Source of the DNA: a bacterium 42_11 | GTDB lineage: Bacteria > Synergistota > GBS-1 | Direction of reading: 5' to 3' | Length of the DNA stretch: 10,016 bases | Assembly: GCA_001508835.1 (NCBI GenBank) | Contig: LGFB01000031.1 | Coordinates: 1-10,016, forward strand | Shown here: piece after piece, positions 1-9,479 of the stretch | Layout of the letters: every line of letters starts with the position of its first letter | Position numbering within the stretch: position 1 is the first letter of the stretch | Position numbers and translations under genes: made by a program | The notes under the pieces: generated by a model | What the model was told of the DNA's origin: nothing | The model's database searches: none | Seen by the model: only the letters and a program-made list of their open reading frames with translations

Positions 1-690
1 GTATACCGAAGCTTCTCTATAAGTAAACAAGGGTATCAGGGGAACGTTAAGCCTCAAGGCAAGGGTAAAAGCGCCGCGGGGGGTTGAGGCCAACCTTCCC
101 ATGAAGGGGAGAAAAATCCCTTGGGACCCCTCATCCTGATCTACCAATATGACGAGAAGCTCTCCCTTCTCAAGGCATCTAACGCGCTGCCTTAACATTC
201 TATCCTTGGGGATGAGCTTTGCGCCATACTTTCTCCTTATCCCCTCTATATATTCAGCGAAAAAGGGGTCATTAGGAGGCCTCACTATCACATTTATCGG
301 GAGCCCCAAGGAGGAAAGGTAGGCCAAGGTAAGCTCCCAGTTGCCAAAGTGTGCCGAAACGATTATTCCTCCGTTTTTGGCATATTCCAGCCCCTCGGAG
401 ATATAAAGACTCTGTAGTTCCTCTACCTCCATCTTCTCGAGGCTTATGACTTCAAGAATGCTCATACCCAAGTGCTCGAAAAGCCCCTTAAGTATCTCAT
501 GGCGCCTATCCCTTAGAAGACCACCGAAGGCCAGAGATATATTCTCGAGGGCTATCCTTTTCCTTTTCAAAAATAGAGGAAGATAGTAAAAAGCCCTACC
601 AAGCCTTCTCCCATATTCCTGATTTTCCTCAAAACTCGATTTTAAAGCCCTCTCCCTGATTCTATTAAAGATCCAGTGAAGAAAGCCCAC
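1..690 (-). CDS. lpxL: Lipid A biosynthesis acyltransferase, LpxL/HtrB family (partial, 3' end beyond window)
   Basis: My own translation gives 230 residues open to the left edge; the family is usually about 290-310 aa, so perhaps 60-80 C-terminal residues are missing. The family transfers an acyl chain from acyl-ACP to the primary acyl chains of (usually Kdo-bearing) lipid A precursor at the inner membrane. Visible family marks are the catalytic HX4E motif HFGNWE (H114, E119), the DQDEG segment (184-188) followed by FLPFMG and ASTPRGA (about 193-207), and an N-terminal stretch of the type LGRAFYYLPL...KRKRIALENI. The start is GTG at 690-688, with GAGG at 700-697 six bases upstream; the next in-frame ATG is near residue 76, too far in. 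It overlaps the GT9 gene by 26 bases. Position after waaA fits an acyltransferase acting on Kdo-lipid A. LpxL, LpxM and LpxP cannot be separated from this fragment. Confidence 0.9.
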   Translation of the reverse strand, partial: MGFLHWIFNRIRERALKSSFEENQEYGRRLGRAFYYLPLFLKRKRIALENISLAFGGLLRDRRHEILKGLFEHLGMSILEVISLEKMEVEELQSLYISEGLEYAKNGGIIVSAHFGNWELTLAYLSSLGLPINVIVRPPNDPFFAEYIEGIRRKYGAKLIPKDRMLRQRVRCLEKGELLVILVDQDEGSQGIFLPFMGRLASTPRGAFTLALRLNVPLIPLFTYREASVY

Positions 691-1675
691 TTACGGCCTC
701 AAGCACCTCCTCGACCGATATGGAAAGCATACATAACTTGGAAGGACATGACCTTCTTCTGCACGGGTTACAACCAACCAAATGATAAAGGACCTTAACC
801 CTCGGTCCCCACGGATAGTTCCTCCAATAAGTTGTGGGGCCGAAAAGAGCTATCGTAGGGGTTCCTAAAGAGCCAGCTAAATTTGTGGGGCCAGTGTCAA
901 CGCCGATTGCGAGATCGCACATGCTCAAAAAGGCGCAGGTTTCCAATAAGGAAAGCTCACCGCCGAGATTTAAAAGGCCATCGATATCGAACTTTCTTGC
1001 ATCGTCCCCCCCTATTACCACGGGTATGAAACCAAGCTTTAAGAGAGCCCAAGAAAGCTTCTCCCACCTTTGGGTCGGCCAGGTTTTCGATTCCCAAGTG
1101 CTTGCAGGGATTAAAGCCACAACCTTTTTAGAAAGAAGCCCTTCAAATTTTCTTAAGGCCTTCACCTTAACCTCTTGAGGGATATAAGGGCCTGCAAAGG
1201 GAGCTTTGGGAATATCCAGCTTAAAATAATGCCTAATAACATCAAGATACCTTTCGGCCACATGAAGGCTTTCAGGCCTCGCTGAAACCCTTTTTAAAAA
1301 TAAGGGGTTACCTTCGGAGGCATCGGGAAAGGTTAGCTTAGCGGAAGCCTTAACGAAAAGCGAAATTAAAGCGCTCTTGAAGTCCCCCTGAAGGTCAAAG
1401 AGGGCATCGAATTTCTCGCTTCTTAACTCCACTATGAGATTTCCCACTTCCTTTAAAAAGGAAGGCCACCGAAAGCCCCTCAATAGAGCCTTCAAGTGGC
1501 CTTTTTTAACGGGCAACAATTTCTTTACCCTCGGGTCTTTCTCAAGAAGGGGTTTAAACCCTTCATCGATAACCCAATACACCTCAACTCCATCAAGGGA
1601 GCTTAAAACCTCAAGGGTTGGAAAGGAATGAGCTATGTCTCCAAGAGAGCTCAGCTTTATAACTAAGGTCCTCAA
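665..1675 (-). CDS. GT9 family glycosyltransferase, heptosyltransferase-like (WaaC/WaaF type)
   Basis: 336 aa, the usual length for GT9 (ADP-heptose:LPS heptosyltransferase family), which adds core sugars to Kdo-lipid A on the cytoplasmic side of the inner membrane. The N-terminal strand VIKLSSLGDIAHSFP (residues 5-19) carries the family's catalytic Asp (D13). The C-terminal Rossmann domain has PASTWESKTWP (190-200) and GVDTGPTNLAGSLGTPTIALFGPT (258-281). Two oddities are Asn265 where the family typically has His (DTGxxHxA) and four clustered cysteines (C302, C305, C310, C315). The start is TTG at 1675-1673: its TTGA overlaps the kdnA stop and AAGGAGG lies four bases upstream. It overlaps lpxL by 26 bases. 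The context, after waaA and kdnBA, suggests it adds a sugar to Kdo or Kdo8N. The donor sugar (heptose or other) cannot be read from sequence. Confidence 0.88.
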   Translation of the reverse strand: MRTLVIKLSSLGDIAHSFPTLEVLSSLDGVEVYWVIDEGFKPLLEKDPRVKKLLPVKKGHLKALLRGFRWPSFLKEVGNLIVELRSEKFDALFDLQGDFKSALISLFVKASAKLTFPDASEGNPLFLKRVSARPESLHVAERYLDVIRHYFKLDIPKAPFAGPYIPQEVKVKALRKFEGLLSKKVVALIPASTWESKTWPTQRWEKLSWALLKLGFIPVVIGGDDARKFDIDGLLNLGGELSLLETCAFLSMCDLAIGVDTGPTNLAGSLGTPTIALFGPTTYWRNYPWGPRVKVLYHLVGCNPCRRRSCPSKLCMLSISVEEVLEAVSGLSSLDL

Positions 1676-2877
1676 AGAACCTCCTTAGCCACCTCCGCGA
1701 AGGCGGAAACTATTTTATCCAGCCTCTCCTTCTCTACCTTAGCGCTTATATCTAAGCTCAAAGCCCTTTCAAGTATCCCCGTAGAACGGGCATATTTTTC
1801 AGGAGAATAGTTTTTCCTTAAAGTATCGTTAAAGGCACACTCAAAGGGACATCTATGAGCAAGCAAGCTCTTCCATTCCATCATATGCTCCCAGTTGGGA
1901 ACGAAATGCCAGCGGTTTGAAGCAAGGTGGGCAACGCCTATCCCCCTCTTCGATAATCCCTCTTTAAAGGCGAGGGCCTTTTCCCTGGATGGGAGAAAAA
2001 CGGTCAGGGTCGAAGCTATCTCTCCCTCCGGGTCTGGTATCTCCCTGAAGGTTATCCCTTTTATCTCGGCTATCCTTTCCTTAAGATACCTTTTGTTTTC
2101 CTTGTGTCTTCTTATAACCTCATCCATCTTAGAAATTTGCGCCAATCCCAATGCCCCCTGAAGCTCACTCATCCTGTAATTGAAACCTATGGAATAACGC
2201 TTCTCCAGAGCCCTCGGAACGCTCATATCGTGAATATGTCCATGGTCGTGATAACAATCGGCCCTAAAGAAGAGCTCTTCATCATCGGTAATTACCATGC
2301 CACCTTCGCCCGTGGTTATTGGCTTGTAAAAGTCGAAGCTAAAGGTCCCGAAATGGCCGAAGGTCCCGAGCTTCCTACCTTTATAGGATGCCCCACAGGC
2401 CTGCGCGTTATCCTCTATCAAATATATACCATGTTTATCGGTTATCCTTTTTATTTCATCTATCTTGGCCTGAACCCCCGTCATATGAACCGCTATGACC
2501 ACCTTCGTTCTATCAGTAATATTCTTTTCTAAATCCTCAGGGTCAAGGTTTAAGGTTTCATCTATGTTCACAAAGACGGGAATAGCACCACAGTCGAGTA
2601 TGGCCTCTGGAGTAGCAACGAAGGTGAAACAGCTGGTTATCACCTCATCACCCGGTCCTACCCCCAGTGCAGCCATGGCAACCTTCAAGGCGGCAGTTCC
2701 AGACATGACGCCTAAGGCATACTTAGAACCCATGTATTCAGCAAACTTCTTTTCAAACTCCCTAACCGCGGAAACACCGAGCATTTGCTCCGCCGCATAC
2801 CTGTGAAGAACCCCCCTATCAAGAACCTTTATTACTTCCACTATCTCCTCCTTGCCAAAAAACTCGCTACCAGGCAT
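1672..2877 (-). CDS. kdnA: DegT/DnrJ/EryC1 family PLP aminotransferase, probable Kdo8N transaminase KdnA
   Basis: 401 aa, a full-length fold-type I sugar aminotransferase. PLP marks are SGTAALKVA (59-67, phosphate contact), IEDNAQACGA (154-163, D156 to the pyridine nitrogen) and SFDFYKPITTGEGG (180-193, Schiff-base Lys185). A YHDHGHIHD segment (209-217) follows. The start is ATG with GGAGG at 2889-2885, seven bases upstream; TAATG overlaps the dehydrogenase stop by one base. KdnA of Shewanella oneidensis transaminates the 8-oxo form of Kdo, made by the Fe-ADH-type KdnB, to 8-amino-3,8-dideoxy-octulosonate (Kdo8N). Coupling to an Fe-ADH gene directly after waaA and kdsD makes this the best reading. 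It rests on family plus context, not on substrate-pocket residues. The alternative is a transaminase for another nucleotide sugar of the LPS core. Confidence 0.78.
   Translation of the reverse strand: MPGSEFFGKEEIVEVIKVLDRGVLHRYAAEQMLGVSAVREFEKKFAEYMGSKYALGVMSGTAALKVAMAALGVGPGDEVITSCFTFVATPEAILDCGAIPVFVNIDETLNLDPEDLEKNITDRTKVVIAVHMTGVQAKIDEIKRITDKHGIYLIEDNAQACGASYKGRKLGTFGHFGTFSFDFYKPITTGEGGMVITDDEELFFRADCYHDHGHIHDMSVPRALEKRYSIGFNYRMSELQGALGLAQISKMDEVIRRHKENKRYLKERIAEIKGITFREIPDPEGEIASTLTVFLPSREKALAFKEGLSKRGIGVAHLASNRWHFVPNWEHMMEWKSLLAHRCPFECAFNDTLRKNYSPEKYARSTGILERALSLDISAKVEKERLDKIVSAFAEVAKEVL
1676..1686 (-). promoter_or_regulatory. Strong Shine-Dalgarno deciding a TTG start (GT9 gene)
   Basis: AAGGAGG at 1686-1680 on the minus strand is followed by TTCT and then TTG at 1675-1673. 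No ATG or GTG start would preserve the conserved N-terminal strand and the LGD motif, so the TTG start is supported by both the ribosome site and the protein alignment. The site lies inside the last codons of kdnA, which implies translational coupling. Confidence 0.75.
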
Positions 2878-4070
2878 TAAAATCCCTCCTCCCTTCCAAA
2901 GTTATATACTTCCCGATAGATGTTATATATCTCCTCATAGCCTATGCGACGAGGGTTATTGGCCAAGGGACGCTCCACCTCAAGGGCAGAGGCCGCTAAA
3001 CGCGGTAAATCCTCCTCGGGGACACCCAAATCGGCAAGGCTAACTGGTAGATTAAGGTCGTAAAGTAACTTAAGAAGGGCATCGTATACGGAAAAGGCTG
3101 CATCCCTTAAAGAAAGGTTTTCGGCTTTCTCTCCAAGTATGGAAGCAACCAGGGCGTATTTGTGAGGAACAGCTATCGCGTTGTAAAGAGAAACATGCGG
3201 GATTAAAACGGAATTGGCAAGACCGTGCCCAATCCCATAAAAGGCGCCCAAAGGATAGGACATGGAGTGACATGCTCCTACACCAGCGTGCGCCAAAGCA
3301 ATGCCCGCAAGAAAGCTACCAAAAAGCATCCCTTCACGGGCTTCGATATTATCCGGAACAGCATAGGCAATCCTTATGTTTTGAGAAATCAGCTTTAAGG
3401 CTTCAAGAGAAAACATTTCGCTCATGGAATTTGAGGAACGAGCCACATAGGACTCAAGAGCATGGGTTAAAGCATCCATACCAGTCGAGGCGGTCAAGGA
3501 AGGGGGCAAAGTAACGGTGAGCTCGGGATCAAGAATCGCAAGGTCAGGTATTATATGAGGGCTGTTAATACCACCCTTTTTTCTCTCATCAAATAGAAAA
3601 ACGGCCGTAGGGGTAACCTCGCTACCAGTACCCGCGGTTGTGGGTATGGCTACGATAGGAATTCCCCTTCGAGGAACTTTGTTAACGCCTATATAATCAC
3701 GAGCCTTACCACCATGCGATGCTACGACGCTTGCTCCCTTTGCAACATCGATGGAGCTTCCACCACCCACGCCTATAACCAAAGCACATTCTTTAGCCAG
3801 TTCTCCTGCCCTATCTGCCTGCTCAACCCGAGGTTCGGGAGTAACTCCATCGTAAAGAATATGCTCTCTGCCAGATATCTCTATCTCCCTTATAACATGT
3901 TCAACTATCTCGGTCTTAGAGAGATTCTCATCGGTGACTATCAATACTTTACCAGGCGGAAAGTTTTTCAGCTCGTCGGGAAGCTTCCTTAAGGTTCTTG
4001 CACCAAATATCACCTTACCGGCAGTTCTAAAAATGAAGGGTTTAATCTCAAACACCTCCCATAAGGTCAT
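2877..4070 (-). CDS. kdnB: Iron-containing (group III) alcohol dehydrogenase, probable Kdo 8-oxidase KdnB
   Basis: 397 aa from the ATG, a full Fe-ADH. Visible are the dinucleotide loop VGGGSSIDVAKG (101-112), IPTTAGTGSEVTPTAVF (142-158) and all four metal ligands, D199 and H203 in TGMDALTHALE, H268 in GACHSMSYPLG and H282 in GHGLANS, matching D196, H200, H263 and H277 of E. coli FucO. Residue 272 is Tyr where FucO and many relatives have a second His. KdnB of Shewanella oxidises C8 of Kdo so that KdnA can aminate it, and the partner gene follows with a one-base overlap. From the ATG the gene overlaps waaA by 23 bases and has no Shine-Dalgarno. Family N-termini align better with a start at the ATT codon at 4046-4044, which has GGGAGGTG upstream (389 aa). 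The alternative is a general alcohol dehydrogenase, unlikely in this operon. Confidence 0.78.
   Translation of the reverse strand: MTLWEVFEIKPFIFRTAGKVIFGARTLRKLPDELKNFPPGKVLIVTDENLSKTEIVEHVIREIEISGREHILYDGVTPEPRVEQADRAGELAKECALVIGVGGGSSIDVAKGASVVASHGGKARDYIGVNKVPRRGIPIVAIPTTAGTGSEVTPTAVFLFDERKKGGINSPHIIPDLAILDPELTVTLPPSLTASTGMDALTHALESYVARSSNSMSEMFSLEALKLISQNIRIAYAVPDNIEAREGMLFGSFLAGIALAHAGVGACHSMSYPLGAFYGIGHGLANSVLIPHVSLYNAIAVPHKYALVASILGEKAENLSLRDAAFSVYDALLKLLYDLNLPVSLADLGVPEEDLPRLAASALEVERPLANNPRRIGYEEIYNIYREVYNFGREEGF
4044..4060 (-). promoter_or_regulatory. Strong Shine-Dalgarno facing an ATT codon (candidate non-canonical kdnB start)
   Basis: GGGAGGTG at 4060-4053 is the best ribosome site at this junction. 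Eight bases after its GGAGG comes ATT (4046-4044), then AAA CCC. This ATT would begin kdnB one base after the waaA TGA stop (4050-4048), the same spacing as the kdsD-waaA junction. The in-frame ATG at 4070 has only AT-rich, non-SD sequence upstream. Use of ATT as start is inference. Confidence 0.45.
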
Positions 4071-5265
4071 TTATCACACTAAGATATCTATTTACCACCC
4101 CTTTGGAGAAAGACAGGGCTCTCTTAAGCGATAGGGAAATCTCGGAAAGCCTCTCCTCATCAAGGAGCAGTTCCCTAACCTTCCCATATAACTCGTCTTC
4201 ATCTTTAACCATAAAACCTGCCCCTATGCTTTGAAGAAAATGTGCTTCCTCAAAGAAATCGTTTATATAAGGCCCGTAAAGAACGGGCTTGCCCCAAGAG
4301 GCAGGTTCAATTAGGTTATGGCCACCCAATGGAACTAAGCTTCCTCCACAGAAGGCAAGGGTAGAAACGGAGTAAAGCTTGAAAAGCTCCCCCATAAGGT
4401 CCCATAAAACGACCTTTGTCCTCGGATTAACGCTCCTTAAGGAAAACTCAAGGTTGTGGTCTTTAAGAAGCTTTGCCACCCTGAAGGCTCTGTCGGGATG
4501 TCTCGGAACCAGAGCCAATCGAAGGTTCGGAAAGTCCCTCAAAAGCCTTTTATAAACCCTTAACACTATCTCCTCCTCACCTTCATGGGTGCTTCCACAA
4601 ACCCATAAAGGCTCATCGTTTAAGGCAAGAAGCTCTCTCATCTCTCCCTTAAAAGAATCCCTCATATTCTCCAAAACGGATTCATACTTCAAGTTTCCCA
4701 TCACCTGAACCCTCTGAGGAGGAGCTCCTAACTCTATGAAGCGGTCTCTATCCCTCTCCGTCATAGCGCCTATAAAATCGAAACTTGAAAGAACCTTCTT
4801 CAAAAAGGGAGAGATAAGCTTATAGCTACCATAAGATCTATCGGAAATTCTTCCGTTAGCTAATATCAATTTCACTCCTCTCTTCTTTAAGGTGGTTATC
4901 ATAAGGGGCCACAGCTCCGTCTCCACAACTATATATAGAGAAGGTTTAATTCTATCTATTGCCCTGTTAACCACCCAAGGCAAATCCCAAGGATAAAAAA
5001 ACAGCTCTTTAACACCGCTTTCCCTCGCAACGGAATACCCAGTCAAGGTGGTAACGGAAAGGCAAGCCTCCTTAAGCCTTCTTAAAAGAGGAAGGATCGC
5101 CTTAACCTCTCCAACGGAAACGGCATGTATCCAGACTCTCTTCTCCTTAGGAGGGGGAAGAGAAATTCTCCCCATCCTCTCATCAAAGCCTTGAGAGTAG
5201 CGTCTCCTCAGATAGGGATAGAGGGAGAAAAAAAGGGCACTCCCCAACAGGGAGTAAATAACCAT
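4048..5265 (-). CDS. waaA: 3-deoxy-D-manno-octulosonic acid (Kdo) transferase WaaA/KdtA
   Basis: 405 aa, slightly under the roughly 425 aa of E. coli WaaA. The enzyme transfers Kdo from CMP-Kdo to lipid A precursor at the inner membrane. A hydrophobic N-terminal anchor (about 2-18) is followed by a basic RRR stretch. The N-terminal domain has WIHAVSVGE with the likely catalytic base E53 (E31 in Aquifex WaaA) and VVETELWP (113-120). The C-terminal domain has CGSTHEGEEE (223-232), PRHPDR (254-259) and GGSLVPLGGHNLIEPASWGKPVLYGP (307-332), all family hallmarks. ATG start one base after the kdsD stop, with GGGGA at 5279-5275. The neighbours kdsD upstream and kdnBA downstream suggest that its donor may be CMP-Kdo8N, as in Kdo8N-making bacteria. 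Mono- versus bifunctional transfer cannot be told from sequence. Confidence 0.95.
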   Translation of the reverse strand: MVIYSLLGSALFFSLYPYLRRRYSQGFDERMGRISLPPPKEKRVWIHAVSVGEVKAILPLLRRLKEACLSVTTLTGYSVARESGVKELFFYPWDLPWVVNRAIDRIKPSLYIVVETELWPLMITTLKKRGVKLILANGRISDRSYGSYKLISPFLKKVLSSFDFIGAMTERDRDRFIELGAPPQRVQVMGNLKYESVLENMRDSFKGEMRELLALNDEPLWVCGSTHEGEEEIVLRVYKRLLRDFPNLRLALVPRHPDRAFRVAKLLKDHNLEFSLRSVNPRTKVVLWDLMGELFKLYSVSTLAFCGGSLVPLGGHNLIEPASWGKPVLYGPYINDFFEEAHFLQSIGAGFMVKDEDELYGKVRELLLDEERLSEISLSLKRALSFSKGVVNRYLSVINDLMGGV

Positions 5266-5266
5266 T

Positions 5267-6238
5267 CTAAACTATCCCCGCTTTCAAGAGATCGTGAATA
5301 TGAACTATACCAACGATATTATCATCACCGTCAACCACAGGCAAAACCGATATTTCGTGTCTTTCCATCAAAGCTAAGGCTTCAGCGGCAAGCTTCCCCA
5401 AAACTATCTTCTTGGGATTCCTTATCATAACCTCACCAACCTTTTTATCAAGAAGGGAGTAGCCGTAGCGTTCAAGAAGTCTTCTTAAATCTCCATCGGT
5501 AAGTATGCCAACAAGGTGACCATCCCTTTCGACAAGTATCGTACCAAAACCCTTGGAAGTCATCTCAAATAGGGCATCCTTAAGCACAGTCCATTCCCTC
5601 ACAAGGGGTATCTCCCTTCCGGTATGCATAACATCCTCTATCCGCAAAAGTAGCTTTCGGCCCAAACTTCCATCGGGGTGAAACATGGCAAAGTCTCCCT
5701 TGCTTAACCCTCTCATCCTCGCAAGGATAACAGCCAAGGCATCTCCTAAGGCAAGCATGACGGTTGTACTCGAGGTAGGGGCAAGGCCTAAAGGACAGGC
5801 TTCCTGATTAACGGAGGTATCCAAAACTATATCAGACTCCTTAGCTAAGGTTGATGAAGGCTTACCCGTAAAGGCGATTATCTTCGTCCCTATCCTCTTA
5901 AAATAAGGGAGGCTTAATAAAACCTCTCTCGTCTCTCCGCTGTTGGAAAGAATCAATGCCACATCCTCTTTCTTAACCATGCCTAAATCGCCGTGAAGCG
6001 CCTCGGCGGGATGGAGAAAGAAAGAAGGAGTCCCCAACGAAGAAAGGGTGGCCGATATCTTCCTTCCCACCAATCCTGACTTTCCCATACCCATAACTAC
6101 TACCCTACCCGGGGATGAGTATATAAGCTTTGCCGCCTTAACGATTTCCTCTCCAAGCCTATCCCTCAACGTTAAAATCTCTCTGGCTTCTATCTCCAAA
6201 ACCCTTTTAGCCTCTTCAAGAAACCTTATATCCCCCAT
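5267..6238 (-). CDS. kdsD: D-arabinose-5-phosphate isomerase (KpsF/GutQ/KdsD family)
   Basis: 323 aa, the normal length of SIS-CBS-CBS isomerases. It interconverts ribulose-5-phosphate and arabinose-5-phosphate, the first committed precursor of Kdo, in the cytosol. The SIS domain (about 40-175) has GMGKSG (50-55), ILSNSGET (96-103), QEACPLGLAPTSSTT (146-159) and FHPDGSLGRK (187-195). K53, E102, E147 and H188 sit where E. coli KdsD has K59, E111, E152 and H193. Two CBS domains follow (about 203-260 and 268-321), the second with ISVLPVVDGDDNIVGIVHIHDLL. It starts two bases after the gpgS stop. The nearest AGGAGGA is 15 bases upstream, long spacing that suggests coupling to gpgS translation. Placement before waaA supports a Kdo role over the GutQ/KpsF paralogues. 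Confidence 0.94.
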   Translation of the reverse strand: MGDIRFLEEAKRVLEIEAREILTLRDRLGEEIVKAAKLIYSSPGRVVVMGMGKSGLVGRKISATLSSLGTPSFFLHPAEALHGDLGMVKKEDVALILSNSGETREVLLSLPYFKRIGTKIIAFTGKPSSTLAKESDIVLDTSVNQEACPLGLAPTSSTTVMLALGDALAVILARMRGLSKGDFAMFHPDGSLGRKLLLRIEDVMHTGREIPLVREWTVLKDALFEMTSKGFGTILVERDGHLVGILTDGDLRRLLERYGYSLLDKKVGEVMIRNPKKIVLGKLAAEALALMERHEISVLPVVDGDDNIVGIVHIHDLLKAGIV

Positions 6239-6240
6239 GG

Positions 6241-7455
6241 CTATATCTTCTTATCCTCCTCCACGACATCAAGAAGTCTTTCAAAGAAATCCGGCATAGC
6301 CGATATCACATTTACCCAATTCGGTATTATAGGCAAAGACATGGGATCCCTCAATATCTCTTCACCAGCTATATCGATAGCCTTTGAGAAGGCAAGGACC
6401 ATCATATGCTCTCCATGCAAATTATATTTCAGGGAATTTATCAAGGCATCGTTATGATATCCCCTTATCATTTTTAAAGCCTCCGTATAATAGGTGGCTT
6501 TAAGAGTCTTAAAGAATCCTTCAGAAAATACGACGCCCCTCCCGGCAAGACTCCTAAATAGCATCTTGGCTATATCCACAGCCATCTTCAAAAGTCCCTT
6601 TTTCGGGTCATCGGGATCTATAACCTGATGCTTATGATCGTAAACATCAGCGATATCAACCTGACATATGGTTCCAAGCGTTGATAGCCTGTAGACTTCA
6701 GCAAGAATCCCTATCTCAATTCCCCAATCGGAAGGAATCCTTAACCTTATGGCAAGCTCAGAGGTCATTGCGAATTCCCCCGAAAGGGGATATCTAAAGC
6801 TGTCCAAGTAAACCAAGAAGTCTATTCTCCCCAATATATTCATAAGAGCCCTTAAAAGGGGAGTTAGGAAAATCCTCATAACTCTCCCATTAAGTTTATC
6901 GGTAAAGCGAGCATAATACCCCTTAGCAAAATCGAAGCTTAAACGGGGATTCGCTATAGGATAAACAAGTCTTGTAAGAAGCTCCCTCTTGTATGTTAAG
7001 ATATCACAGTCGTGCGAAGCTATAGTATGAAACTGTCTCCTTGCAAGAGCATATCCGTAACCAATCCAGACCGCCATCCCCTTTCCTCTTTCCCAAGGGC
7101 CAAACTCATCCCAGAGCTTTCTATAAAGCTCCTGCATACGAGGCCCATCATTCCATATAACCACGACCTCTTGGGGAAGCTTGGAAAGAAACCTCTTCAC
7201 ATAGCGAAAGCCCTCCTCATCAGCCCTATCCAGAGATAAAACTATCAAGTCTACATAGTCGGCGGTAGCCAGCTCATCCACTATCTTGGGCATCGCATCT
7301 CCCTCAAACTCGGAAAATAAGGAAGGCAAGACCAACGCTACCTGGCTGTAAGGTTTGAATTTCTTCAGTTCGCTTATCAAAAGGTCTTCATTGTCCCTTC
7401 TTAATCTGTGAAGGGTAGTTATAACGCCGTTTTGAAAGAAATCCGCCATCCCCAC
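6241..7455 (-). CDS. gpgS: Glucosyl-3-phosphoglycerate synthase GpgS (GT81)
   Basis: 404 aa, matching bacterial and archaeal GpgS of the Persephonella type. It joins an NDP-glucose to D-3-phosphoglycerate, giving glucosyl-3-phosphoglycerate, precursor of the compatible solute glucosylglycerate. The GT-A fold is shown by ALVLPSLFSE (40-49), the GKG loop (124-126, nucleotide contact), the metal-binding HDCDI (148-152; D149 and D151), LSGEFAM (224-230), DWGIEIG (243-249) and the active-site His in VYDHKHQ (271-277; H274). A helical C-terminal part completes the protein. I take GTG at 7455 as start: the near-canonical GAGGGGGTGA ends one base before it. ATG two codons later (7449) is an equal alternative. 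It follows the phosphatase gene by one base. GDP- versus UDP-glucose preference is not visible. Confidence 0.88.
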   Translation of the reverse strand: MGMADFFQNGVITTLHRLRRDNEDLLISELKKFKPYSQVALVLPSLFSEFEGDAMPKIVDELATADYVDLIVLSLDRADEEGFRYVKRFLSKLPQEVVVIWNDGPRMQELYRKLWDEFGPWERGKGMAVWIGYGYALARRQFHTIASHDCDILTYKRELLTRLVYPIANPRLSFDFAKGYYARFTDKLNGRVMRIFLTPLLRALMNILGRIDFLVYLDSFRYPLSGEFAMTSELAIRLRIPSDWGIEIGILAEVYRLSTLGTICQVDIADVYDHKHQVIDPDDPKKGLLKMAVDIAKMLFRSLAGRGVVFSEGFFKTLKATYYTEALKMIRGYHNDALINSLKYNLHGEHMMVLAFSKAIDIAGEEILRDPMSLPIIPNWVNVISAMPDFFERLLDVVEEDKKI

Positions 7456-7456
7456 T

Positions 7457-7466
7457 TCACCCCCTC
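7457..7466 (-). promoter_or_regulatory. Near-consensus Shine-Dalgarno of gpgS overlapping the phosphatase stop
   Basis: GAGGGGGTGA at 7466-7457 differs from the consensus GAGGAGGTGA by one base. Its TGA is also the phosphatase stop codon. GTG (7455) and ATG (7449) both fall within reach, so the exact start is ambiguous by two codons. Confidence 0.6.
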
Positions 7467-8236
7467 AATATTTTGAAGATGGCTTCGGCCCAACCAAAGG
7501 GACCCGGTTGCTCGGTGACATATAGATTATGGAGGTTAAGCTCGGGTAACCTGCCGGATTTGCCTCGAACCAGAACCGGATAATCTACCTCCTTAAGCAT
7601 GGGAAGATCGTTTTCTCCGTCTCCCAAACCTATAAAAACCACCTCGCATCCGGAATAGATGTTCTTAAATCTCTCCCTAAGAATCCTGACAGCCTTTCCC
7701 TTGTCGTTATCTCCGGTTACAGAGTAAAACCTACTCCCTTTAGTGAGCTTGAGCCCATGCTTCTTTAGGAAACTTTCAAGAGAAGGGGCAAGCTCATCAT
7801 CAATGAGAATCGTCTCTGAAAAATCTCTCCTTTTGGCCAAATCGGCCTCCTTCAAGCTTAACCCACTTACCCGCGCAACCTCTTCCACGGAGAGCTCATG
7901 AAATCCCTTAAAGTTCAACCCTAAAGCTTCCTTCGCCTTTTTAAGGATTTCAACTATAAAGCTATGGGGAACCCCCAGGGATATTATCTCATAATCTTCA
8001 CCGGAAGGAAGAAAGATTCCTCCTCCGTTCTCCGATATAAATGGATACTCTTTTAAAGATAGCCTCTCCCTATATAGCTCAATCTCCGCCCTCGTTTTAC
8101 TCGAGCATAATATAAGAGGAATATTCTTCTCCCTTAAAAGCTTTAATGCTTCCTCCGCTCCCTCGAAAGAATAGCTCTCATCGAGAAGGGTGCCATCGAG
8201 GTCACTAATCACAAACTTTACCTCTTTTTGTTTCAT
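7457..8236 (-). CDS. HAD-type mannosyl-/glucosyl-3-phosphoglycerate phosphatase (MpgP/GpgP family)
   Basis: 259 aa from the ATG at 8236. It is a HAD class IIB phosphatase that removes phosphate from glycosyl-3-phosphoglycerate to give the free solute. In the 263-residue numbering from the ATG at 8248, motif I is SDLDGTLLD (nucleophile D16, acid/base D18), motif II is LCSSKT (47-52), motif III Lys is in GDNDKGKAV (179-187) and motif IV is GLGDGENDLPML (207-218). MpgP-specific marks are SENGGGIFLP (72-81), RFYSVTG (173-179) and PGPFGW (248-253). The start at 8236 is preferred because AGAGGA (8245-8240) lies just upstream; the ATG at 8248 has only a weak AGG. Either way it overlaps the preceding glycosyltransferase gene (32 or 44 bases). 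Adjacent gpgS makes glucosyl-3-phosphoglycerate the likely substrate; mannosylglucosyl-phosphoglycerate (MggB role) is possible. Confidence 0.85.
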   Translation of the reverse strand: MKQKEVKFVISDLDGTLLDESYSFEGAEEALKLLREKNIPLILCSSKTRAEIELYRERLSLKEYPFISENGGGIFLPSGEDYEIISLGVPHSFIVEILKKAKEALGLNFKGFHELSVEEVARVSGLSLKEADLAKRRDFSETILIDDELAPSLESFLKKHGLKLTKGSRFYSVTGDNDKGKAVRILRERFKNIYSGCEVVFIGLGDGENDLPMLKEVDYPVLVRGKSGRLPELNLHNLYVTEQPGPFGWAEAIFKILRG

Positions 8237-9479
8237 CTTTCCTCTCATCCCATACCTTTATAAGATAAGGCTTATTGTCTTCGAAAACCTGTGCCTGCGT
8301 CTCAACGTGAGCCTCCGCCTCCTCGGAAGTCATGTTCATGGTCTCGTTGATGAAAGAGGCAACCCTTCCAAAATAAAGAGGCATCAAAAGCATGACAAGC
8401 TTTCTCGTATTAACCGCCCACACGTTATAGGTAGCTGCCCACTCATAAACTATTTTGGACCATATATCTATGGGAATTATAAAATCTCTAACGGATAGGT
8501 CGGCAAGCCTTTCTATATACTCAAAAAGCTCCTTGGAAAGTATGTTCTGCCAAACGGGAGCAAACTGTTTAAAACCCATCTTAAATTCGTAAACCAGATT
8601 CTCAAGGTCTACCTTTACCGGCTCCGGCTCGTGTTTCTCAGGAGATCCAAAGGTTTCAACGGGAACGCTTTTTTCCACGCTCCTCCAGTAAGGTTCATGC
8701 TCCCTCATTAGGTAAAACATGGTCCATACGACTTCACGGAACATGGGACCAAGATGCAACGCAGGGTCTTTCGCATCATGGACCTTAACTCCAAGGTTGG
8801 CCTGGCAAACCTTAAATCCATTGACTATCGCCTCGGTCGTAACCCATATATCTATACCGAAGCGAGCTACCTCCGTGTCCCAAACGGGCTTTTTAAGATA
8901 AGCTTCAACAAGCTTGTTAGAAAAGGCGAAATCCCCACCTATGGGCTGTCTGATTCTTTTACCGTATAAGGCCCTTGTAACATTGTAAACTATGTTATTT
9001 GTTATAGTCCCATCGTGCTTGTGCCTTATGTACACGGGAGCCACAAAGTCGAAATCCCTTTCCAAGACAGGCGTAAGTAGCTCCTTAACCCACTCCGATG
9101 TAATACTTCTAAGGTCGGCATCAACGGTAATGCAGGCTTTAGCTTCCAAAAGAGAGGCCACTTCAAAAATAAGCCTCACCGCACTACCCTTTCCACTAGG
9201 CCCGCGGTATATGGCGACGACCTTTTCCTGCCACGGCTTGAGCTCCACATCTTCCACCACTTCCCTTGAGTCGTCAGTAGACCCACCATCTGCAACAACT
9301 ATGACGCTTCTTAAATCTCTGTAATATTTGTGAAGTCCCTCACTTGCCATTCGAACAACATGTCCTATTGTCTTTTCATTGTTGTAGCAAGGTATTCCCA
9401 CAATTATATCCGCCTTTTCTATTTCCTCTACCCTCTTACGAATCTGCGGTCTTAAAGTAGAAGTGTAAATTTTAAACAC
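8205..9479 (-). CDS. GT-A glycosyltransferase, glucosylglycerate/mannosylglycerate synthase-like
   Basis: 424 aa. The N-terminal GT2-like domain has IVGIPCYNNEKTI (26-38), VVADGGSTDD (61-70), the SGKGSA loop (95-100), the metal-binding DADL (120-123), RQPIGGDFAFS (177-187), FGIDIW (208-212) and an active-site-like His in VKVHDAKDP (231-239). The C-terminal part (about 290-400) is helical and contains YEWAATY (345-351), which recalls WAATY in Rhodothermus mannosylglycerate synthase. This makes a one-step sugar-to-glycerate transferase (Ggs or MGS type) the best reading; a mannosyltransferase making mannosylglucosylglycerate is the main alternative. The start is GTG: the upstream in-frame codons are TGA GGG GGG, so nothing longer is possible, and GAGG (9487-9484) is four bases away. 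It follows pdxT by 15 bases and precedes the matching phosphatase and gpgS. Confidence 0.75.
   Translation of the reverse strand: MFKIYTSTLRPQIRKRVEEIEKADIIVGIPCYNNEKTIGHVVRMASEGLHKYYRDLRSVIVVADGGSTDDSREVVEDVELKPWQEKVVAIYRGPSGKGSAVRLIFEVASLLEAKACITVDADLRSITSEWVKELLTPVLERDFDFVAPVYIRHKHDGTITNNIVYNVTRALYGKRIRQPIGGDFAFSNKLVEAYLKKPVWDTEVARFGIDIWVTTEAIVNGFKVCQANLGVKVHDAKDPALHLGPMFREVVWTMFYLMREHEPYWRSVEKSVPVETFGSPEKHEPEPVKVDLENLVYEFKMGFKQFAPVWQNILSKELFEYIERLADLSVRDFIIPIDIWSKIVYEWAATYNVWAVNTRKLVMLLMPLYFGRVASFINETMNMTSEEAEAHVETQAQVFEDNKPYLIKVWDERKDETKRGKVCD
8237..8245 (-). promoter_or_regulatory. Shine-Dalgarno choosing the phosphatase start
   Basis: AGAGGA (8245-8240) followed by AAG precedes ATG at 8236. 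The alternative ATG at 8248 overlaps the other side of this site and is preceded by TATGGG. The conserved HAD strand begins only at about residue 10, so the protein alignment does not decide and the ribosome site does. Confidence 0.5.

Follow-up and report, generated by a model that had tools for sequence, protein, structure and literature searches.

A predicted second type of Kdo 8-oxidase partners KdnA in lipid A-core operons of Synergistota

Introduction

The sugar 3-deoxy-D-manno-octulosonic acid (Kdo) is often treated as a near-invariant component of lipopolysaccharide (LPS). A stretch of 10,016 nucleotides from the Synergistota bacterium 42_11 (lineage GBS-1, contig LGFB01000031.1; hereafter the window) raises the question of whether this sugar may be made there as 8-amino-Kdo (Kdo8N), which a passage of PMC6357163 calls a hallmark of Shewanella. 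Directly after kdsD and waaA, the window encodes an iron-type alcohol dehydrogenase (FeADH) and a DegT-family aminotransferase, which a preliminary description had taken to be the KdnB/KdnA pair of Shewanella. The comparisons reported here suggest that the operon makes the lipid A-core linking sugar as Kdo8N by way of a second type of Kdo 8-oxidase, provisionally "KdnB2", lying outside the Shewanella KdnB clade, a reading to which we assign a probability of roughly four in five.

In the proposed pathway, KdsD would start Kdo synthesis, the FeADH would oxidise C8 of free Kdo to an aldehyde with NAD(P)+, and KdnA would transaminate the C8 aldehyde, with glutamate as the donor by analogy with the Shewanella enzyme, for which we take glutamate to be the amino donor. 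A KdsB encoded elsewhere would then activate Kdo8N, and WaaA would transfer it to lipid A. In this scheme, KdnB2 would take the position of KdnB next to kdnA across much of Synergistota as well as in genomes of the Desulfobacterota type. We infer the substrate, direction and cofactor of the FeADH, and the presence of Kdo8N in the LPS, from the evidence that follows (G numbers denote genomes and L numbers loci).

Results

The aminotransferase is a predicted KdnA

The top PDB match of the aminotransferase was Shewanella oneidensis KdnA (5k8b, 311.7 bits; runner-up 193.3 bits), and 5k8b also ranked first in a fold search with the predicted model (pLDDT 75.8, moderate confidence). The window protein retains the motifs of the Shewanella enzyme over its full length (the pyridoxal phosphate (PLP) lysine, DHGH, PDPxG and N-x-WH...WxH) and differs from it in overall sequence, with 41% identity. 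Residues K185, which we take to be the PLP-holding lysine of KdnA, D156, N321, W323, H324, W329 and H331 were invariant across 11 sequences including 5k8b. In a tree of 64 rows, for which 29 of the 79 loci L003-L081 were chosen by hand, 62 KdnA rows separated from a small outgroup of 2 DegT segments with support of 100/95; the only Synergistota KdnAs grouping with 5k8b were those of G039, G041 and G027. Sequence and fold matches, the motifs and the tree together support the assignment of the window aminotransferase as KdnA, as had been proposed. The accompanying expectation that both genes would be annotated generically was borne out for the relatives of the FeADH, which are named just alcohol dehydrogenase, and not for those of the aminotransferase, many of which already appear as 8-amino-3,8-dideoxy-alpha-D-manno-octulosonate transaminase (JGI).

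Among more distant proteins, G125 encodes a divergent KdnA-like protein (L265:3075-4277) that is 40% identical and has altered motifs; nearby are two TetR-like frames (judged by eye), with no oxidase, kdsB or waaA match within 7 kb, and this protein may act otherwise.

An FeADH outside the KdnB clade accompanies kdnA

All window genes lie on the minus strand in a single run, in which kdsD, waaA, the FeADH gene, kdnA and a GT9 gene are consecutive (Table 1). The waaA and FeADH genes overlap by 23 bases, and the FeADH stop and the kdnA start share one base in the sequence TAATG; the coordinates, the placement next to waaA and kdsD and this overlap had all been described correctly. A single waaA copy was detected in the window's genome (PF04413). 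Several window genes score under the curated NCBIfam cut-offs despite highly significant family matches. Because each reading frame has such matches, and because kdsD-waaA-FeADH-kdnA follow one another in each of the three closest genomes as well (L137, L138 and L173, the contig of the last ending within kdnA), the frames are not chance ones.

In our trees the KdnB clade stands apart from the window-type FeADHs at 100%, and a passage of PMC5125639 treats KdnB as an FeADH subfamily of its own (FeADH3, cd08184). Like KdnB of S. oneidensis (5k8c), the window-type enzyme has a KdnA partner and the Asp-His-His-His metal ligands (D199, H203, H268 and H282), which are kept in 83/83 window-type, 10/10 KdnB-type and 48/48 other FeADHs.

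To describe the linkage more widely, GTDB contigs were searched, giving 557 pattern matches of which 473 encode KdnA relatives, and linkage was counted in the best 80 of these 473. A window-type FeADH lay upstream of kdnA on the same strand, at a distance of at most 1.63 kb, in 73 of the 80 loci. Just one locus (L002, GBS-1) came from the window's family, the other titles being mostly Syntrophaceae, Smithellaceae, Desulfobacterales and "Deltaproteobacteria"; neighbouring genes included hldD and kdsB. This linkage, together with that across Synergistota, led us to reject a chance neighbourhood of the FeADH and kdnA. The viral contigs searched held no relative, and the plasmid matches listed (15 of 1012 records) were DegT relatives with less than 38% identity.

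Within Synergistota, waaA was present in 61/61 genomes searched and a KdnA-clade match in 32 (at least 288 bits; next DegT 209 bits). The partner was an adjacent window-type FeADH in 21 of these 32 and another FeADH type in 11, this other type being the KdnB clade (3rf7 163 bits, 5k8c 152 bits, next 59). A survey of 185 Synergistota genomes, in which KdnA and KdnB were each called at E 1e-75, found KdnA in 91 and KdnB in 48, of which 47 also have KdnA. The window-type FeADH was adjacent to kdnA in 39 of the 91 (38 plus G067, counted as window-type with its FeADH cut at the contig start), KdnB was adjacent in 27 and elsewhere in 20, and neither was found in 5, so that the two oxidases have a largely complementary distribution. 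In G039, G041 and G027 (L160, L163 and L164), the Shewanella-branch KdnA has no adjacent oxidase and a KdnB-clade enzyme is encoded elsewhere in each genome. In two genomes scored as KdnA-free (G079 and G180), a window-type FeADH lies where a contig ends, accompanied in one of them by the first 66 KdnA residues.

The two oxidase types share rare pocket residues

We searched 397 positions for residues that both oxidase types retain and that are uncommon among 48 other FeADHs. This comparison set was drawn from Synergistota, with three references added, rather than from a survey of all FeADHs, and the KdnB type is represented by 10 rows, 2 of them segments from the PDB. Asn169 ranked first (window type 82/83, KdnB type 10/10, other FeADHs 0/48), Val264 second (83/83, 10/10 and 5/48) and Asp86 third. 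The absence of Asn169 in the 28 FeADHs of the discovery set was repeated in 20 held-out FeADHs from KdnA-free genomes (0/20). In four additional unlinked FeADHs this position is Q, V, M and V, and the two FeADHs located next to waaA or kdsB where a contig ends carry N there. Seven FeADHs from seven KdnB genomes (L198-L204), included as a check on window-type enzymes distant from kdnA, all lack Asn169.

With numbering anchored on the FucO metal ligands Asp196, His200, His263 and His277, Asn169 aligns with FucO Val166 and Val264 with FucO Leu259. According to passages of PMC10324492, Val166 lines the specificity pocket of FucO, and Leu259Val together with Asn151Gly widens that pocket for bulky substrates. 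The window type differs from FucO in having T, N, L and V in place of N151, V166, F254 and L259, the Thr at FucO 151 and the Leu at FucO 254 being present in 83/83 rows each. Asn169, Val264, Asp86 and Tyr272 are shared with KdnB; the window-type Leu259 (FucO Phe254) is found in no KdnB-type row, and Thr155 in only 2 of 10. Tyr272, which corresponds to FucO 267 (His), occurs in both oxidase types and also in 17/48 other FeADHs.

Kdo gene clusters and a separate KdsB clade

Of the 21 genomes with the window type in the 61-genome set, 18, the window included, have the arrangement waaA-FeADH-kdnA, and the remaining three (G038, G040 and G052, a single genus) have kdsB-FeADH-kdnA. Twelve fetched contexts hold kdsB, kdsD, waaA, FeADH and kdnA together. 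Read gene by gene, L142 encodes an lpxK/lpxB-like gene, kdsB, kdsA, kdsD, waaA, FeADH and kdnA, and then ELM1-, GT4- and GT9-type glycosyltransferases. L153-L155, L159 and L162 show this layout with KdnB as the oxidase (kdsB-KdnB-kdnA); in L156-L158 kdsB lies on the opposite side. The gene directly after kdnA in the Synergistota LPS operon of L142 (9081-10241) encodes a putative glycosyltransferase of ELM1 type (PF06258).

A quick tree of 94 KdsBs, computed with no bootstrap and with rows labelled by linkage or genome and not by the tree, set the 29 rows from KdnA genomes apart by a branch at 98%. Across this branch lay 33 unlinked KdsBs, of which 25 belong to KdnA-free genomes and 8 are second copies, together with E. 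coli KdsB (93 and 89%), and the KdsBs taken from 31 of the 79 loci L003-L081 formed a third group. The tree left out G000, the window's own assembly (none found), G058 (a fragment), G033 (the same protein as G022) and the KdnA-free G012, G028, G044 and G059. The KdsB of Shewanella reportedly prefers Kdo8N, and the 29-row group likely represents CMP-Kdo8N synthetases. At E. coli positions 101, 184 and 211, KdsBs of KdnA genomes mostly have Asp, Pro and Met and unlinked ones Glu, Ile and Gln, making these candidate specificity positions; the passages of PMC3149649 on KdsB name no residue that contacts C8 of Kdo.

The KdsB data also bear on the stage at which Kdo would be modified. Eight KdnA genomes hold one KdsB of each clade and may make both sugars, because a second, ordinary-clade KdsB is kept; this favours an alternative in which the FeADH and KdnA modify Kdo after activation or transfer, or provide an outer Kdo8N while plain Kdo is linked to lipid A. 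Against this, a single KdsB per genome exceeds the cut-off in G001-G003, the closest genomes to that of the window, and it falls in the KdnA-genome clade, and the genes of the pair adjoin the only waaA found. We regard modification at another stage or place as unlikely.

Evidence against the assignment and the remaining alternatives

Several observations weigh against the FeADH being a Kdo 8-oxidase that serves KdnA. In the PDB it is matched best by enzymes acting on methanol, propanediol and lactaldehyde (235-256 bits), with KdnB 5k8c at rank 36 of 46 (104 bits). A fold search with its model (pLDDT 91.1) likewise placed methanol, propanediol and lactaldehyde enzymes first, at a template modelling (TM) score of about 0.9, and 5k8c was not among the 50 chains listed. 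In the wider set of 80 loci, 5 of the 7 without a linked FeADH have at least 3.5 kb upstream with none (the other 2 are cut by contig ends). Among the 5 KdnA genomes of the survey with neither oxidase found, kdsB lies beside kdnA in 4 (G115, G116, G156 and G163) and not in G125. One of the 48 KdnB genomes, G164, gave no KdnA match. The oxidase types are also not strictly exclusive, because G025 has both: its second oxidase is a Shewanella-branch KdnB (L242:1489-2553, 320 bits to 5k8c) encoded away from kdnA, which at 34% identity falls under the survey threshold and is the sole Shewanella-branch KdnB in the 185 genomes at E 1e-50. A feature of this genome, the sole one with both oxidases, speaks for the reading instead: its kdnA-adjacent FeADH (L147:6694-7860) has lost the marker residue, with Ser for Asn169, and is the sole exception among the 83 window-type rows. 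Lastly, of the kdsA, kdsC and kdsB genes that the preliminary description had proposed to look for elsewhere in the genome, kdsB and kdsC were not found in G000 (77.6% complete) and kdsA appeared as a fragment at a contig edge. All three exceed the cut-off in G001, a member of the same genus, where some 10 kb separate kdsB from kdsC on a single contig. Because G001 has all three and G000 is incomplete to this degree, an assembly gap is the simple reading.

On the basis of the bit scores, the separate clade and the fold ranking, we reject strict orthology of the FeADH with KdnB. The preliminary description had named placement in another clade as an outcome that would speak against it, and the FeADH does lie outside the Shewanella KdnB clade, by similarity with the methanol, propanediol and lactaldehyde dehydrogenases. 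The predicted function that went with the name, oxidation of Kdo at C8, still stands because the FeADH takes KdnB's place beside kdnA, lies in Kdo gene clusters and shares pocket residues with KdnB.

The same similarities, and the retention of a Shewanella-branch KdnB in G025, favour the view that KdnA is served by another oxidase and that the FeADH acts as an ordinary dehydrogenase of small alcohols, sharing no more than the operon. The window FeADH indeed has the fold of FucO and the methanol and 1,3-propanediol dehydrogenases, with 33-37% identity to these top fold-search rows, and unlike them it has kdnA as its genomic partner. It scores below the cut-off of every NCBIfam model that it matches, including the lactaldehyde reductase model TIGR02638 (302.9 bits, cut-off 523.15). 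This view is further opposed by the linkage to kdnA in the wider contigs and in Synergistota, by the finding of no KdnB in 38 of the 39 Synergistota genomes with an adjacent window-type FeADH and by residue 169, which differs from all 48 comparison FeADHs; we consider it very improbable. That the pair aminates a different 3-deoxy-2-ketoacid sugar, as the distance of KdnA from the Shewanella enzyme and a substrate assignment resting on sequence might allow, seems hardly credible given kdsD and waaA, and in relatives also kdsA and kdsB, in the same cluster and the KdnA motifs that are kept.

Descent of the oxidases

The 8 KdnAs encoded beside KdnB in Synergistota fall inside the clade of window-type-linked KdnAs (100/100). 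Forcing these 8 to group with 5k8b cost 140.6 log units (approximately unbiased test, pAU 2.7e-5), and 55.8 (pAU 0.022) when the KdnAs of G027, G039 and G041 were added. Because of this nesting and this cost, the oxidase partner of kdnA has likely been exchanged within Synergistota. The FeADH trees are quick and have long branches. In one of 121 rows, 2 changes are needed for the 83 window-type rows, and a single clade of them is not rejected; in one of 104 rows, with L003-L081 thinned at random to 25, the window type forms one clade at 94%. A tree with both oxidase types on one side of the 48 other FeADHs is not rejected either, with a log likelihood (lnL) 11.07 higher (pAU 0.70), and sister groups and convergence both fit. 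A wider scenario, which we hold only tentatively and rather doubt, is that Kdo 8-oxidation evolved twice from FeADHs, with Asn at FucO 166 and Val at FucO 259 arising by convergence, that the oxidases were swapped beside kdnA in Synergistota, with G025 caught half-way, and that Kdo8N-linked lipid A is an old and common trait in both Synergistota and Desulfobacterota, served by KdsB lineages of its own.

Other genes of the window

Directly before kdsD, the genes for a GpgS-like synthase, an MPGP-family phosphatase and a GT2 glycosyltransferase resemble a gene set for glucosyl- or mannosylglucosylglycerate, a compatible solute; the trio is also present in G002 (L173).

Table 1. Genes and features of the window, with the basis of each assignment
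Feature	Position	Strand	Basis
pdxT-like gene	first in the run	-	judged by eye
GT2 glycosyltransferase, MPGP-family phosphatase, GpgS-like synthase	6241-9479	-	family matches
kdsD, arabinose-5-phosphate isomerase, first Kdo synthesis step	5267-6238	-	NCBIfam KdsD 354 bits (cut-off 505); TIGR00393 334 bits (cut-off 203.7, passed)
waaA, transferase of Kdo (here probably Kdo8N) to lipid A	4048-5265	-	NF004388 331 bits (cut-off 438, below); PF04413 above cut-off
FeADH, predicted second-type Kdo 8-dehydrogenase, "KdnB2"	2877-4070	-	clade, linkage, distribution, pocket residues, fold
TAATG junction: FeADH stop 2879-2877, kdnA start 2877-2875	2875-2879	-	sequence read
kdnA, DegT aminotransferase, predicted 8-amino-3,8-dideoxy-manno-octulosonate transaminase	1672-2877	-	PDB, fold, tree
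GT9 heptosyltransferase-like inner-core glycosyltransferase	665-1675	-	TIGR02193 132 bits (cut-off 185, below)
Lipid A acyltransferase, LpxL/HtrB type, continuing past the window edge	1-690	-	PF03279 107.6 bits, above cut-off

Discussion

Neither this operon nor this oxidase type was found described in the open-licence literature searched, subscription papers being outside its scope. Among the matches listed, the literature on Kdo8N, KdnA or KdnB consisted of papers and reviews on the LPS of Shewanella, a single survey of FeADHs and a few incidental mentions, and the titles and abstract starts on Synergistota LPS held no Kdo8N. An amino sugar known mainly from Shewanella appears to be made here with the known amino-adding enzyme and a different oxidising enzyme, and the gene pair is also present in a second phylum.

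If the reading of the FeADH as KdnB2 is true, Kdo8N would be a predicted trait of about half of the 185 Synergistota species and of many Desulfobacterota-type genomes, and the pocket code of Asn169 and Val264 would separate Kdo 8-oxidases from the alcohol dehydrogenases under whose label they now stand. An amino group on Kdo would place a positive charge next to lipid A, which could alter the tightness of the membrane and the recognition of endotoxin.

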